Source: Achromobacter insuavis
Lineage (GTDB): Bacteria > Pseudomonadota > Gammaproteobacteria > Burkholderiales > Burkholderiaceae_B
Direction: 5' to 3'
DNA length: 64,000 bases
Assembly: GCF_902859645.1 (NCBI RefSeq)
Contig: NZ_CADIJR010000005.1
Span: 1 to 64,000, forward strand
Numbering within the stretch: position 1 is the stretch's first letter; each line of letters opens with the position of its first letter. The position numbers and the translations under genes were made by a program. The notes beneath the pieces were generated by a model that ran no database searches, had not been told where the DNA came from, and saw only the letters and a list, made by a program, of their open reading frames with translations. Below are positions 25,527-63,330 of this stretch, one piece after another.

Positions 25527-25655
25527 TCCCGCGCGGCCGGTCCGCCGGCCGCGGTTCCACCGATTGAAACGGCGCCGCACGACCCGCCGGCCATGCGCCG
25601 CGGGCGACGCGCGGCGCCGCGCATAAAAACAAAATGACCCACACAGGAGACAACC

Positions 25656-43102: not shown

Positions 43103-44518
43103 TCAGGCTTGCAGCACCTTGCCGGGATTCATCAGGCCTTGCGGGTCCAGCGCGCGCTTGATGCGGCGCATCAGGGCCAGCTCGACCGGACTCTTGTAGC
43201 GCGGCAGCTCGTCGCGCTTGAGCTGGCCGACGCCGTGTTCCGCGCTGATGGAGCCGGCATGCGCATGCACGCTGTCATGCACCACGCCGTAGATGTCGCT
43301 TTGCAGCGCCAGCAGCTCGGCCTCGGTCTGGCCCGGCGCGTTGGCGACGTTGTAGTGCAGGTTGCCATCGCCCAGGTGGCCGAAGATCACGTGGCGCACG
43401 CCGGGAAAGCGCGCCTGCAGCAGGCCATTGGTCTGGTGCACGAAGCCGGCGATGGCCGAGATCGGGATCGAGACGTCGTGCTTGACCGACTTGCCCAGCT
43501 CGGCCTCGGCCAGCGGAATGCTCTCGCGCAGGTGCCACAACGCCTTGCTCTGCGCCACGTTGGCGGCGATGGCGGCGTCGTTCACCAGGCCGGCCTCGAT
43601 GGCCTCGCCCAGCACCGTCTCGAAGCGCTCGCGCGCATGCGCCTCGCTTTCGCTGTCGGACAGCTCCAGCAGCGCGAACCACGGCGAGGCGGCGGACGCG
43701 CCCTCGAACGGCAGGCGCTGCTGCGGGAACAGGCGCACCACCGCCTGCAGGCAGTCGCCGCTCATCAGCTCGAAGCCGGTCAGCGCGGCGCCGAAGCCGG
43801 CGCGGGCCCGCGACAGCAGCTCGACCGCGTTGTCGATGCTGTCCAGCGTCAACAGCGCGGTGCAGGACGCGACCGGCCGCGGGAACAGCTTGAGCGTGGC
43901 CGCGGTGATGATGCCCAGCGTGCCTTCGCTGCCGATGTAGAGATCGCGCAGGTCGTAGCCGGTGTTGTCCTTGCGCAGGCCGCGCAGGCCGTTCCAGATC
44001 TCGCCCTCGGCGGTGACCACTTCCAGGCCCAGGGCCAGGTCGCGCGTGTTGCCGTAGCGCAGCACCTGGGTGCCGCCGGCGTTGGTGGCGAGATTGCCGC
44101 CGATGGTGCAGCTGCCCTCGGCCGCCAGGCTCAGCGGAAACAGCCGGCCGGCGTCGGCGGCGGCCTGCTGCACGGCCTGCAGGATGCAGCCGGCTTCCAC
44201 GGTGATGGTGTCGTTGTCGGTATCGAGCGCGCGCACCCGGTTCAGGCGCGCGGTCGACAGCACCACGGCGCTGCCCGAGCCGTCGGGCGTGGCGCCGCCG
44301 CACAGGCCGGTATTGCCGCCTTGCGGCACCACCGGCACGCCATGGCGCGCGCACAGCTTGATGGCGTCGGCCACTTGCTGCGTGGACCCGGGGCGGACCA
44401 CCGCCAGCGCCTCGCCGCGATAGCGGCGGCGCCAGTCCAGCGCGAAAGGTTCGGCATCGGCGCCGGTCAGCACATGGGACTCGCCCAGGAGGGACTGCAA
44501 TTCGCTCAGCAAGGTCAT
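43103..44518 (-). CDS. FAD-linked D-2-hydroxyacid dehydrogenase (D-2-hydroxyglutarate/D-lactate type)
   Basis: A 471-residue flavoprotein with a PCMH FAD domain (VVPQGGNTGLCGGATPD, EAGCILQAVQ, LAAEGSCTIGGNLATNAGGTQVLRYGN) and a C-terminal FAD-linked oxidase domain (HDVSIPISAIAGFV, IFGHLGDGNLHYNV, ISAEHGVGQLKRDEL, LMRRIKRALDPQGLMNPGK). It oxidises a D-2-hydroxyacid, passing electrons to a quinone or electron-transfer flavoprotein. The substrate cannot be settled by eye; D-2-hydroxyglutarate, made by side activity of SerA, is common for this subgroup. Confidence 0.9.
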   Translation of the reverse strand: MTLLSELQSLLGESHVLTGADAEPFALDWRRRYRGEALAVVRPGSTQQVADAIKLCARHGVPVVPQGGNTGLCGGATPDGSGSAVVLSTARLNRVRALDTDNDTITVEAGCILQAVQQAAADAGRLFPLSLAAEGSCTIGGNLATNAGGTQVLRYGNTRDLALGLEVVTAEGEIWNGLRGLRKDNTGYDLRDLYIGSEGTLGIITAATLKLFPRPVASCTALLTLDSIDNAVELLSRARAGFGAALTGFELMSGDCLQAVVRLFPQQRLPFEGASAASPWFALLELSDSESEAHARERFETVLGEAIEAGLVNDAAIAANVAQSKALWHLRESIPLAEAELGKSVKHDVSIPISAIAGFVHQTNGLLQARFPGVRHVIFGHLGDGNLHYNVANAPGQTEAELLALQSDIYGVVHDSVHAHAGSISAEHGVGQLKRDELPRYKSPVELALMRRIKRALDPQGLMNPGKVLQA

Positions 44519-60587: not shown

Positions 60588-61691
60588 TTAATCGGCTCGC
60601 AGGACGGAGGGCAACAGCAGCCACCCCGGACGGCGCCACGACACCAGTCGCGCATACAGCCAGATATAGACGCTGGCGAACACCACCAGGCTGGCGCTGA
60701 GCGCCCAGGCGTTGTCCCACCAGATGGTGGCGGGCACCAGGCCGATCAGGGCCAGCACCCACATGTAGGGCGATGCCAGGGCATTGCACAGCGCCGGCAC
60801 CGCATGGCGGCGGCCGCGGCTGAAGGTCACGCGCACCAGGCGGCGGAACACCAGCTGATGCAGGTGCAAGGCATCCGGCTGGTCCACCGGCACGCCGCGC
60901 TTGAAGCGGCGGCGCCAGATGGAAAAGCCGGTTTCGAATACGGGGTAGAACAGCACCGCCAGCGCGTAGAACGGCGACACCGACGGGTTGCGCACCACCA
61001 GCAGCACGGCCAGCTCGGCCAGCATGAAACCCAGGAAGTACGCGCCGCCATCGCCCAGGAAGACGCGGCCGAACGGGAAATTCCAGACCAGGAAGCCGAG
61101 CGTGGCCGAAGCCAGCGCCGCCGCCACCAGGAAGATCGGCACATCGCCGACCTGCAGCGCGACCAGGCTGATGGACACCGCCATCAGCGTCGCGACCATG
61201 CCGGCCAGGCCGTTCATGCCGTCGACGATGTTCAGGGCATGGGTACAGCCACCCACCGCGAACATCGTGAAAATCAGGGAAACGGGCCAATAGGACAGGA
61301 CATAATCCACCGGGGCCATGCCGACGCGGCTGACGCCGCCCAGCAGCCACCAGGCGATCGCGGCCGACGCGAACGCCGCCAGCAGGCGCTTGCTGGCGCC
61401 GATGTCCTTGGTGATGTCTTCGAGCAACCCGGCCACGAACACGGGCAGCGCCGACACGAACAGCGCGGGCCACAGCCAGGTCAGGGTCATGTTTTCGGGC
61501 CCGAGCACCAGCAGGCCCATGAGCGTGCCCGCCAGCACGGCCAGTCCGCCCACGCGAGGCGTGGCGCGCGAATGGTTCGCTTGCGGTTTGTTGAGATCGC
61601 TGTCGCCGGTGAAGGCGCCATGCCAGCGCTCCGACGCCACGATGAGTCCCCCCACCATGAACGCGACCACGCATATGTACAGCCAGGTCAC
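60588..61691 (-). CDS. Undecaprenyl-phosphate sugar-1-phosphate transferase (WecA/WbpL family)
   Basis: A 367-residue polytopic membrane protein of about eleven helices. Family motifs are ATPRVGGLAVLAG near the N-terminus, LLEDITKDIGASKRLL (the DDxxD-type site reads EDITKD), NIVDGMNGLAG (catalytic NxxxNxxDG/LD region), FLGDGGAYFLGF and the cytosolic DALHLHQLVFRRLV HIHH-like loop. It starts repeat-unit synthesis by loading HexNAc-1-P (probably GlcNAc, QuiNAc or FucNAc) onto undecaprenyl phosphate. The start is GTG at 61691 with GAGG seven bases upstream. It is the first gene of the nine-gene operon. Confidence 0.92.
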   Translation of the reverse strand: MTWLYICVVAFMVGGLIVASERWHGAFTGDSDLNKPQANHSRATPRVGGLAVLAGTLMGLLVLGPENMTLTWLWPALFVSALPVFVAGLLEDITKDIGASKRLLAAFASAAIAWWLLGGVSRVGMAPVDYVLSYWPVSLIFTMFAVGGCTHALNIVDGMNGLAGMVATLMAVSISLVALQVGDVPIFLVAAALASATLGFLVWNFPFGRVFLGDGGAYFLGFMLAELAVLLVVRNPSVSPFYALAVLFYPVFETGFSIWRRRFKRGVPVDQPDALHLHQLVFRRLVRVTFSRGRRHAVPALCNALASPYMWVLALIGLVPATIWWDNAWALSASLVVFASVYIWLYARLVSWRRPGWLLLPSVLRAD

Positions 61692-61763: not shown

Positions 61764-62055
61764 AGGGATAAGGAAGTGCAAATCACCGGGACAGAACGTA
61801 ACGTCCGCAACCCCGGCCAGGACACGTGCGGGGACCCCCGTTTGGCGGGAGATGCTGCAACGCGGCCGGCGGCGCGCGGAAATGCGGATTTCATGCATTA
61901 ATTGTAGAGCTTTCCGCCTCTGTCGATGCGAAATATCCAAGGGAAAACGCGGAGCGCGCCAAGGTAGGACCACGGCCCTTTCGCCCCTGTCTCGCCCGGC
62001 GCGAAAGACCGGACATCCGGCATAAATAGGGACGCATTGATTTGGCCTAAAAAAA

Positions 62056-62081
62056 AGCCCGAGATCGTGAGATCTCGGGCT
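62056..62081 (-). terminator. Intrinsic terminator with 8-T tail (minus strand)
   Basis: A perfect 11-bp stem (62056-62066 with 62071-62081) and a 4-base loop are followed on minus by a run of T from 62056 to 62049. The A run lies only on the plus 5' side, so it works leftward. The nearest annotated minus-strand stop codon, that of coq7, is about 460 bases upstream. Confidence 0.85.
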
Positions 62082-62141
62082 AAATCCACCAAAGGAGGAG
62101 GGTGGAGGAGACAACCTTGGCATGCTGGGAGCCGCTTTCGC

Positions 62142-62219
62142 TCACTGCGCTGTCGGGGTTCTGTGGTGCTTGTCCTGCTTGGACTTTGCTTTTGAACCGC
62201 GCCGACTGCGTTTCAACAT
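62142..62219 (-). CDS. Possible 25-residue basic peptide inside the predicted RNA
   Basis: The frame begins MLKRSRRGSKAKSK and ends in HRTPTAQ, with about ten Lys/Arg residues. It lacks a ribosome site and would have a leader of only about six bases if transcription starts at 62225. I recognise no family. It may be translated leaderless or be a chance frame. Confidence 0.2.
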   Translation of the reverse strand: MLKRSRRGSKAKSKQDKHHRTPTAQ

Positions 62220-62231
62220 CCGATGAGATGC

Positions 62232-62260
62232 ATAGTATCGGGTTTTTTTGTGCGATGCAA
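62232..62260 (-). promoter_or_regulatory. Sigma70-type promoter of the predicted small RNA
   Basis: On minus, TTGCAT (62260-62255) and TACTAT (62237-62232) are spaced 17 bases apart in an AT-rich tract unlike the surrounding genes. Confidence 0.5.
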
Positions 62261-62538
62261 GATTTTTTTTAAGCCCAACGCACCGCACCATTCCGCGTTG
62301 CATTTTTGCCGCAATTCGCCTGACCGTCGCCCGGAAAGCCGCATGCAGCAATGACCTTCGAAAACGGAGGGTTATTGCCGAAGGGGTAAACCCCTTGCGG
62401 ACTTACCCTAGCTGATTCCGGGTATTCCCGCCCTATTCCTTGCACCGGAAAGGTGCATGCGGCACCAATATGCTGCAATTTTTGCGCATTGCAACATTTT
62501 CATGCCCCACGGGCAGGCATGCCCGCAGGCCGGCCGCC

Positions 62539-63216
62539 TCAGATGCGGTAGGCGGTCGTCGTCATGACCTTGGACATCGCCCGCATGGCGGCCTTGACCG
62601 GACCGGGCAGCGGCACGCCGCCCGCGGCTTCGGCGCTGGCGCGGTGCTGGGCCTCGTCTTCCTTCATCTTCTGCACGATCTGGCGCGAGCGGGCATCCTG
62701 CTCGGGCAGGGTGCGCAGATGCCCTTCCAGGTGCGCCTCGACCTGTTTTTCGGTTTCGGCCATGAAGCCCAGGTTGCGCGGCGCGCCCGCATAACCGGCC
62801 AGCAGGCCCAGCGCGAACGAGCCCGCGTACCAGACCGGATTGAGCAGGCTGGGGCGGCTGCCCAGCTCGGTCAGGCGCTGGTTGCACCACACCAAGTGGT
62901 CGACTTCCTCGCCGGCGGCCTCGAGCAACAGGGCGCGCGGGCCGGGTTCGCGGCACACCGCGGCCTGCCCGCGGTACAGCGCCTGGGCGCAGACTTCGCC
63001 CACGTGGTTGACCCGCATCAGCCCGGCCGCGTGGCGCTTTTCCTGCGCCGACAAGGTGTCCGGCGCCTCTTCGGCCGTGGCCGGATTGGGCCGGCCGGCG
63101 CTGGCGCTGCCGGACAGCACGCGCAGCGCGCGGTCGGCTTCCGCCAACAGTGCATCCAGCGGATTCGAGCGGCGCAGGAAGGCGGCGGGACCGGATTGGG
63201 ACAAGGTGGGGGACAT
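62539..63216 (-). CDS. coq7: 2-polyprenyl-3-methyl-6-methoxy-1,4-benzoquinone monooxygenase
   Basis: A 225-residue di-iron hydroxylase for a late step of ubiquinone synthesis. Iron ligands are in [18 protein letters not shown] (Glu), [14 protein letters not shown] (ExxH), [11 protein letters not shown] (Glu) and KEDEAQH (ExxH), the ferritin-like pattern of Coq7. The ATG at 63216 has AGGAG seven bases upstream; a frame extension to 63300 lacks support. It is divergent from the OsmC gene with a 114-base gap. Confidence 0.95.
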
Positions 63217-63330
63217 GGACGGCTCCTGGATTGGCCGCACACCCCTGATGCGGGGCGGGGCTCTCAAGCGGAATTGTACGCAACGGGTATCATCAGCCAT
63301 TGACTGCGCTCAAGCACAAGGACCTGACAA

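Follow-up and report, generated by a model that had tools for sequence, protein, structure and literature searches.

A predicted PhaR-type operator at the promoter of the Achromobacter insuavis orthologue of the small RNA S17

Which small RNA is encoded between coq7 and a glycosyltransferase gene in Achromobacter insuavis, what might set its level, and which messages might it control? The window analyzed was a 64,000-nucleotide stretch of the A. insuavis genome. The initial annotation had proposed a minus-strand RNA of about 175 nt for this locus and had named an Rfam covariance search and conservation in relatives as tests of the proposal.

Identity, structure and conservation of the RNA

Using cmscan, positions 62113-62049 of the minus strand were matched to Rfam family RF02278 ('toxic sRNA') with 69.2 bits (E 6.9e-12; gathering cut-off 50). 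The match is full-length, covering model positions 1-64 of 64. The family name, Betaproteobacteria toxic sRNA, derives from toxicity to E. coli when cloned. The sRNA region scored below every cut-off with the Rfam models for NmsRb, anti-hemB, SorY, ncS16, SorX, suhB/mmgR and NsiR1. This is the single RF02278 copy found in a search of the A. insuavis genome.

The locus has the layout of S17 of Bordetella pertussis. According to the available text of the S17 preprint, S17 lies between the glycosyltransferase gene BP3151 and coq7, is bound by Hfq, and is made as a long RNA from its own mapped sigma-70 promoter, PS17; RNase E releases the 67-nt S17S from the 190-nt long form S17L (PMC11722255). 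The A. insuavis RNA sits between a downstream glycosyltransferase family 4 gene (60588-61691, minus strand; PF00953) and the conserved upstream neighbour coq7 (62539-63300, minus strand; PF03232, 4.7e-43). Its -35 hexamer TTGCAT (62255-62260, minus strand) and -10 hexamer TACTAT (62232-62237, minus strand), read from the sequence, are the hexamers of mapped PS17, and the 17-base spacer is identical. The 17-base-spaced promoter of the initial annotation is thus present, but it is weak by consensus, and a simple promoter scan detected none there.

A genuine sRNA is very probably encoded here. It is the Achromobacter orthologue of S17, from another genus but with the same neighbours, promoter and two hairpins. 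The RNA itself is not new, because S17 and double-hairpin homologues from Burkholderia have already been described under RF02278, and the initial annotation, to which a betaproteobacterial counterpart in this position was not familiar, is outdated on this point. In the accessible part of PMC5688073, four homologues in Burkholderia cenocepacia (ncS03/05/27/62) are called double-hairpin RNAs; they share CU-rich stretches directed against ribosome sites and predicted targets in carbon metabolism, and for ncS03/05/27 elevated levels are listed both with glucose medium and under starvation. They differ from the A. insuavis RNA in having several copies per genome. No S17-type locus was found in a search of a plasmid collection.

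The primary transcript, equivalent to S17L, is predicted to run from 62224 to 62049 on the minus strand (∼176 nt), starting at an A seven bp below the -10 as judged by likeness to PS17. Its 3' part, 62113-62049, is the predicted stable double-hairpin sRNA, equivalent to S17S. It begins with Site 1, UGUCUCCUCC (62104-62113, minus strand), which is complementary to GGAGGAGACA ribosome sites. Hairpin 1 (62085-62106, minus strand) has a UCCACC/GGUGGA stem and the loop CUCCUCCUUU (Site 2), as predicted by folding and an alignment of 16 sequences. It is followed by the terminator hairpin, supported by folding and covariation, and the U tail. Direct reading confirmed the perfect 11-bp terminator stem (62081-62056) with its T run (62056-62049), as well as the tandem motif described initially: on the minus strand CTCCTCC (62110-62104) is followed by ACC, a second CTCCTCC (62100-62094) and TTT. 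A pair of CTCCTCC motifs at most 6 bases apart occurs once in the 64-kb window when both strands are counted, compared with 0 occurrences in 60 Markov-1 simulations of 64 kb. Among 200 dinucleotide shuffles none folded as well as the 67-nt 3' part (62049-62115; z -7.35), and 1/200 folded as well as the 177-nt form (z -3.32).

As known from S17, a sigma-70 promoter would give the long RNA, from which RNase E would release the stable two-hairpin RNA. By this analogy the stable product should be ∼65-66 nt (62113/62114-62049), and the long form from 62224 would be a short-lived precursor. The ∼175-nt RNA of the initial annotation therefore stands as a predicted precursor and falls as the stable product. 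The sequence GGTTGTCTCC around the predicted processing site recurs in many relatives.

Two other groups of anti-Shine-Dalgarno RNAs were compared. The CcsR and 'cuckoo' sRNAs of Alphaproteobacteria, to which the RNA had been likened, are short hairpin RNAs with anti-Shine-Dalgarno loops, a CCUCCUCCC loop motif, a co-transcribed DUF1127 ORF and control by a stress sigma factor. The likeness is one of analogy only: the CCUCCUCCC string is absent from the A. insuavis sRNA, and the ORF upstream of it lacks both conservation and a Pfam match. NmsR of Neisseria (RF02877), in the literature available in part, likewise has two CU-rich segments that target metabolic genes at their ribosome sites. It differs in being a tandem pair in Neisseria, and the A. 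insuavis sRNA reaches 35.6 bits with its model (cut-off 52).

Conservation in relatives was extensive. RF02278 was found above cut-off in 186/200 genomes of the family to which A. insuavis belongs. In the order 99/150 genomes had a match, 59 of them over the cut-off, and in the class 37/143 genomes had a match (E 0.001 or better). The two class genomes over the cut-off were A. insuavis itself and another member of its order. Scanning named genomes with a pattern, and hence sampling them by the core motif, gave at least 120 stretches. At least 161 of the loci listed carry the S17-type core, a conservation that is partly imposed because most loci were picked by a pattern that fixes the core. Likewise, the stem of hairpin 1 is invariant in the 16 aligned S17-type sequences, 12 of which were fetched by a stem-fixing pattern. 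Changes on both sides that keep the pair were seen at 7/16 predicted pairs, all in the terminator stem.

Two observations on copy number stand apart. Tandem pairs of closely similar S17-type copies occur in two Pigmentiphaga genomes, the copies being 535 bp apart in one (cores near L022 1503 and 2038) and 377 bp apart in the other (L122 7298 and 7675, minus strand). Two order genomes have 9 and 8 RF02278 matches (G205 and G253), which suggests an expansion of the family with diverged loops.

The steady company of coq7 raises the question of whether the RNA is purely a product of the coq7 3' UTR. Among the loci listed, 90 sRNA copies had a coq7 gene in the fetched stretch (88 loci, with some genomes represented twice), and in all 90 it was upstream in the same orientation. 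We consider such an origin scarcely credible, as 73/161 of the S17-type loci listed lack coq7 in the fetched stretch and the promoter mapped in B. pertussis belongs to S17 itself (PMC11722255, available text).

The leader upstream of the processing site was examined in 59 sequences, defined by TTGCN3GCA with GGATG 30-50 nt below. Its 5' end, GGATGNNN, can pair with NNNCATGCC immediately upstream of the processing site. The predicted closing helix joins the 5' arm GGATGTTG (62214-62221, minus strand) to the 3' arm CAGCATGCC (62119-62127, minus strand), which ends just before that site. Six of the 59 leaders lack the 3' partner motif and were left out of the pairing count. The remaining 53 gave 17 distinct combinations, in which 46/51 cells of three variable pairs were paired, compared with a mean of 34.6 and a maximum of 42 in 10,000 shuffles, a statistic that is blind to kinship.

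The leader also holds a 25-codon ORF (62142-62219, minus strand; L219). A dual-function RNA, with a small basic peptide encoded in the leader and an sRNA at the 3' end, would accord with this ORF, with the putative 32-residue ORF of S17 (PMC11722255, available text), and with the M[SL]KR start seen in many relatives. The ORF was judged not to be coding. From the leader ATG it stops after 1 to 50 codons in 37/59 leaders and is open past the segment in 22/59, the leader lengths are spread over all three frames (23/21/15), and the ATG region covaries with its partner near the processing site. There was no Pfam match at E 1 when the ORF was read as either 25 or 69 codons. The peptide was rejected on these grounds; a dual function is highly improbable, and a structured leader is better supported.

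A predicted PhaR-type operator over the -35

A putative operator, ATCTTGCATCGCACAAA (62247-62263; core TGCATCGCA, 62251-62259), overlaps the -35. It differs at 2/17 positions from the PhaR consensus of Ralstonia eutropha, YTKNTGCRNYGCANMAR. The PhbF motif of Herbaspirillum seropedicae is TG[N]TGC[N]3GCAA. PhaR acts as repressor of the phasin gene phaP1 in R. eutropha, where PHB granules sequester it while they form. Besides PMC11722255 and PMC5688073, the literature basis comprises the available portions of PMC4603805, PMC7011215, PMC3206438, PMC12849132, PMC12542648, PMC9049629 and PMC5760752. From the likeness to the consensus and its conservation we infer that PhaR would bind the S17 operator.

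The sites in A. insuavis itself were surveyed. The 64-kb window has 9 places with TGCN3GCA and at most 3 mismatches to the PhaR consensus; the S17 site has 2. The genome has one phasin gene (PF09361) and one PhaR gene. Upstream of the phasin gene (L190, ORF at 1486) are sites with 0 and 1 mismatches to the consensus, which begin 184 and 129 bases before the ORF (L190 1302 and 1357). No PhaR-type site was found in the phaR locus (L191). The strictest 13-base form of the site occurs 3 times in the genome, compared with 2 for a reversed control, and by eye neither of its other two occurrences lies close to PHB genes; this genome-wide pattern was rejected as uninformative about a PhaR regulon. Separately, window positions 43158-43174 match the PhaR consensus with 0 mismatches at a place unrelated to the sRNA.

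Among the loci listed, the dyad TGCRNYGCA lies at most 230 nt upstream in 116/146 distinct S17-type loci; the corresponding figure for 3482 windows placed at random in these loci is 4.7%. The dyad coincides with the -35 of a promoter with TAnnnT 16-18 bases away in 104 of these loci, 95 of them at 17. In three Ralstonia loci among the 116 (L064, L068 and L092) the site does not coincide with the -35 but lies 35 nt ahead of the core. In the operator tally of the loci listed, the site was absent at 9/9 Burkholderia loci, which differ in this respect from A. insuavis, and at 10/11 Cupriavidus and 5/5 Trinickia loci. The operator is not universal, so neither would be the wiring of S17 to PhaR.

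Short dyads are bound by many regulators. The RNA might be an ordinary S17/RF02278 orthologue whose TGCN3GCA dyad belongs to another regulator or serves as an extended promoter element. In B. pertussis, S17 is reported to depend on Bvg (PMC11722255, available text). We regard this reading as unlikely. Six control dyads that altered spacing or half-sites were found upstream at 4, 2, 2, 1, 0 and 4 of the 146 loci listed, the dyad also stands upstream of the A. insuavis phasin gene, and its presence tracks that of PhaR, as follows.

PhaR (PF07879) was detected in 181/200 family genomes. The sRNA and PhaR were strongly associated in this family: 180 genomes have both, 1 has PhaR only, 6 the sRNA only and 13 neither, 8 of these 13 being 0.7-0.8-Mb genomes of one genus. 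Over the order, co-occurrence of RF02278 and PhaR was not significant (72/30/27/21, p 0.098). At 70 loci from 60 order genomes the dyad lies within 250 nt at 30/46 loci with PhaR vs 2/24 without (p 4e-6); the core of L168 is misplaced in this count, and its actual site would give 31/46. The operator is missing at 16/46 loci with PhaR. The 2/24 without PhaR consist of a locus with its site at -239 and a locus in an 85%-complete genome. Collapsed to families, the figures were 16/20 with PhaR vs 1/10 without (p 4e-4), or 2/10 (p 0.004) once the site at -239 is counted, which is not a full phylogenetic test.

In the A. insuavis family, the operator was present at 46/49 PhaR-bearing loci examined vs 3/6 PhaR-less loci (p 0.013), a count in which L215 is represented by just 240 nt, the start of which may form the second half of a site. 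The p value is no lower because the operator is kept in three fragmented assemblies of 210-310 contigs with no detected PhaR (G193, G194 and, at -236, G186), where the PhaR gene could have been missed. The operator is gone from three PhaR-less genomes: G057 (100% complete, 9 contigs), G107 (100%, 1 contig) and G119 (91%). G107 retains the -35 half and has lost the GCA half, which counts against the reading of the dyad as another regulator's site or an extended promoter element. PhaR-bearing congeners examined keep the operator in 4/4 (g23), 6/6 (g4) and 3/5 (g22) cases.

RF02278-like elements also occur beside PHB genes. Inspection by eye of the matches listed gave at least 6 genomes in which RF02278 scores 32-40 bits within ∼1.1 kb of a PhaR domain. 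In at least 5 genomes from two other families (L262-L266; 33.1-40 bits) the element directly follows an ORF that diverges from phaR, starting 0-66 nt beyond it. Each of these five ORFs passes the Phasin_2 cut-off, one of them barely (25.1 vs 24.9), and is separated from phaR by a stretch with one or two PhaR-type dyads; GTCTCCTCC stands at the start of all five matches. The sixth locus (L267) has a lone match, with two dyads upstream of it. The element in L262-L266 is possibly a phasin 3'-UTR sRNA. Since these matches do not reach the Rfam cut-off, they leave common descent with S17 unproven.

Eight class genomes outside the order (L182-L189) have two-hairpin anti-Shine-Dalgarno elements that score 43.5-48.7 bits, just below the RF02278 cut-off. 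The matches lie near 1501, except in L185 (1091) and L188 (1252), and no other Rfam family claims them at its cut-off. A tRNA is ∼1 kb from the element in four of these loci and 224 nt from it in L188. A PhaR-type dyad just upstream was read in 1/8 of them (L188).

Ribosome sites and putative targets

The heptamer GGAGACA is complementary to the 5' end of S17. In the A. insuavis genome the pattern GGAGACAN{2,7}ATG occurs 198 times, compared with 51 for the control GGAGCAA of equal composition. In 400 kb from a congener, ACA was the commonest suffix of GGAG before the ATG of long ORFs (13/124 vs a background of 1.8%, p 4e-7); GGAGGT was not enriched there. The suffix was found at 0/18 ATG starts in the 64-kb window. 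In two order genomes without an RF02278 match it is at 1/37 (G213) and outside the 14 commonest of 49 (G236).

The ratio of GGAGACA to control was then compared over 150 order genomes. Its median was 2.01 in the 29 genomes whose best RF02278 score was at least 60 bits, 0.87 at 50-60 bits (30 genomes), 0.67 with weak matches (40) and 0.81 with none (51). The difference held at the family level (14 vs 12 families, p 0.001). With TCCACC-type cores the ratio was 2.19 (25 genomes) and with TCCATC-type cores 0.79 (34 genomes), the types being assigned by reading and a few entries approximate. G217 is an exception, with a ratio of 2.2 and no RF02278 match.

The 13 GGAGACA genes of the congener encode binding proteins (four Peripla_BP_6, one TctC and one DctP) and enzymes: an acyl-CoA dehydrogenase, an enoyl-CoA hydratase, two acetyl-CoA synthetase-like proteins, a 3-hydroxyisobutyrate dehydrogenase, a penicillin amidase and a cyclase. 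Genes for uptake or for acyl-CoA or short-acid metabolism made up 11/13 of these vs 2/24 controls (NMT1-like and thiolase; p 6e-6), where the 24 control ORFs were drawn from 105 and the sorting into gene classes was not blind. Counting isocitrate lyase and an FMN oxidoreductase raises the controls to 4/24 (p 9e-5), and dropping the 7/24 control ORFs without a Pfam match gives p 1e-4 or 0.0025. In the window, a GGAGACA ribosome site precedes a 559-codon ORF with a GTG start at 25646 on the plus strand; this ORF, which by eye encodes an FAD monooxygenase, is a candidate S17 target.

This gene class agrees with the published S17 targets as given in the available text of PMC11722255. Deletion of S17 raised ∼90 genes, including 32 transporter-related genes or operons, and S17S lowered an mmsB fusion ∼2-fold. 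No response to S17 was seen for fusions of BP0442 or of BP1445, an acyl-CoA dehydrogenase. Repression of BP2158 is direct; Site 1 pairing was demonstrated, and compensatory mutations show pairing with the target mRNA, near ribosome sites.

Might the RNA instead be a ribosome decoy? Its CCUCCUUU loop, which we take to resemble the 3' end of 16S rRNA, would then titrate ribosome sites non-specifically and lower growth, in line with the 'toxic sRNA' name. The tandem anti-Shine-Dalgarno motif fits such a role, as does the slower growth on ncS27 overexpression (PMC5688073, available text). The decoy idea, raised in the initial annotation, is not favoured and we judge it very unlikely. The compensatory mutations show that pairing is specific, and S17S overexpression in E. 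coli left exponential growth unimpaired, with no more than a modest impairment of growth at entry into stationary phase (PMC11722255, available text). The enriched GGAGACA reaches beyond the part complementary to the 16S end, and the lack of GGAGGT enrichment in the congener points the same way. The global translational regulator that the initial annotation also suggested fared better: the RNA is very probably a broad translational regulator with two anti-Shine-Dalgarno elements.

A proposed storage-sensing circuit

The preferred reading is that the S17 orthologue is probably under the control of a PhaR operator, and that granule formation would raise S17 and so damp carbon uptake and breakdown through GGAGACA-type sites. 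It is based on the conservation of the operator, its association with PhaR, the phasin-linked versions and the ribosome-site enrichment. Free PhaR would occupy the operator over the -35, and PHB granules would pull PhaR away. S17 would then be low without granules and high while carbon is stored, because PhaR would repress it and be drawn onto the granules. The CU-rich 5' end of S17 would repress mRNAs with GGAGACA-type ribosome sites, presumably mainly those for solute-binding proteins and enzymes of acyl-CoA or short-chain acid metabolism. Carbon intake would thereby be curbed as stores fill.

The best parallel found, for its PhaR control, is MmgR of Sinorhizobium meliloti (RF00519). In the available parts of the literature MmgR is tied to PHB and repressed by PhaR (AniA), whose motif its promoter has; a PhaR-type site likewise lies in the A. 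insuavis promoter. The RNAs differ in sequence, as the A. insuavis sRNA scores 18.4 bits with RF00519 (cut-off 41), and in reported action, which is on phasin for MmgR, whereas S17 seems directed at uptake and catabolism.

The available text of the S17 preprint postulates an unidentified repressor of PS17 and does not mention PhaR or PHB (PMC11722255). A literature search returned no paper linking PhaR with RF02278; most subscription papers and the original ncS27/bdhR1 and MmgR papers lay outside its coverage. PhaR is thus a concrete, testable candidate for the switch at PS17. New here relative to the published RNA are the PhaR-type operator, its association with PhaR, the phasin-linked matches and the GGAGACA enrichment.

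A wider reading, to which we give about even chances, is that RF02278/S17 is the post-transcriptional arm of PHB-granule sensing in much of Betaproteobacteria. PhaR would set the sRNA level through the sRNA's own promoter or a phasin 3' UTR, uptake and acyl-CoA genes would have evolved GGAGACA, and a filled store would lower intake. If true, PhaR control would make S17 the betaproteobacterial counterpart of the PhaR-MmgR circuit and would help explain why an almost invariant anti-Shine-Dalgarno RNA is so widely retained. GGAGACA suggests a readable ribosome-site code for the S17 regulon, which may be useful for PHB bioplastic hosts.
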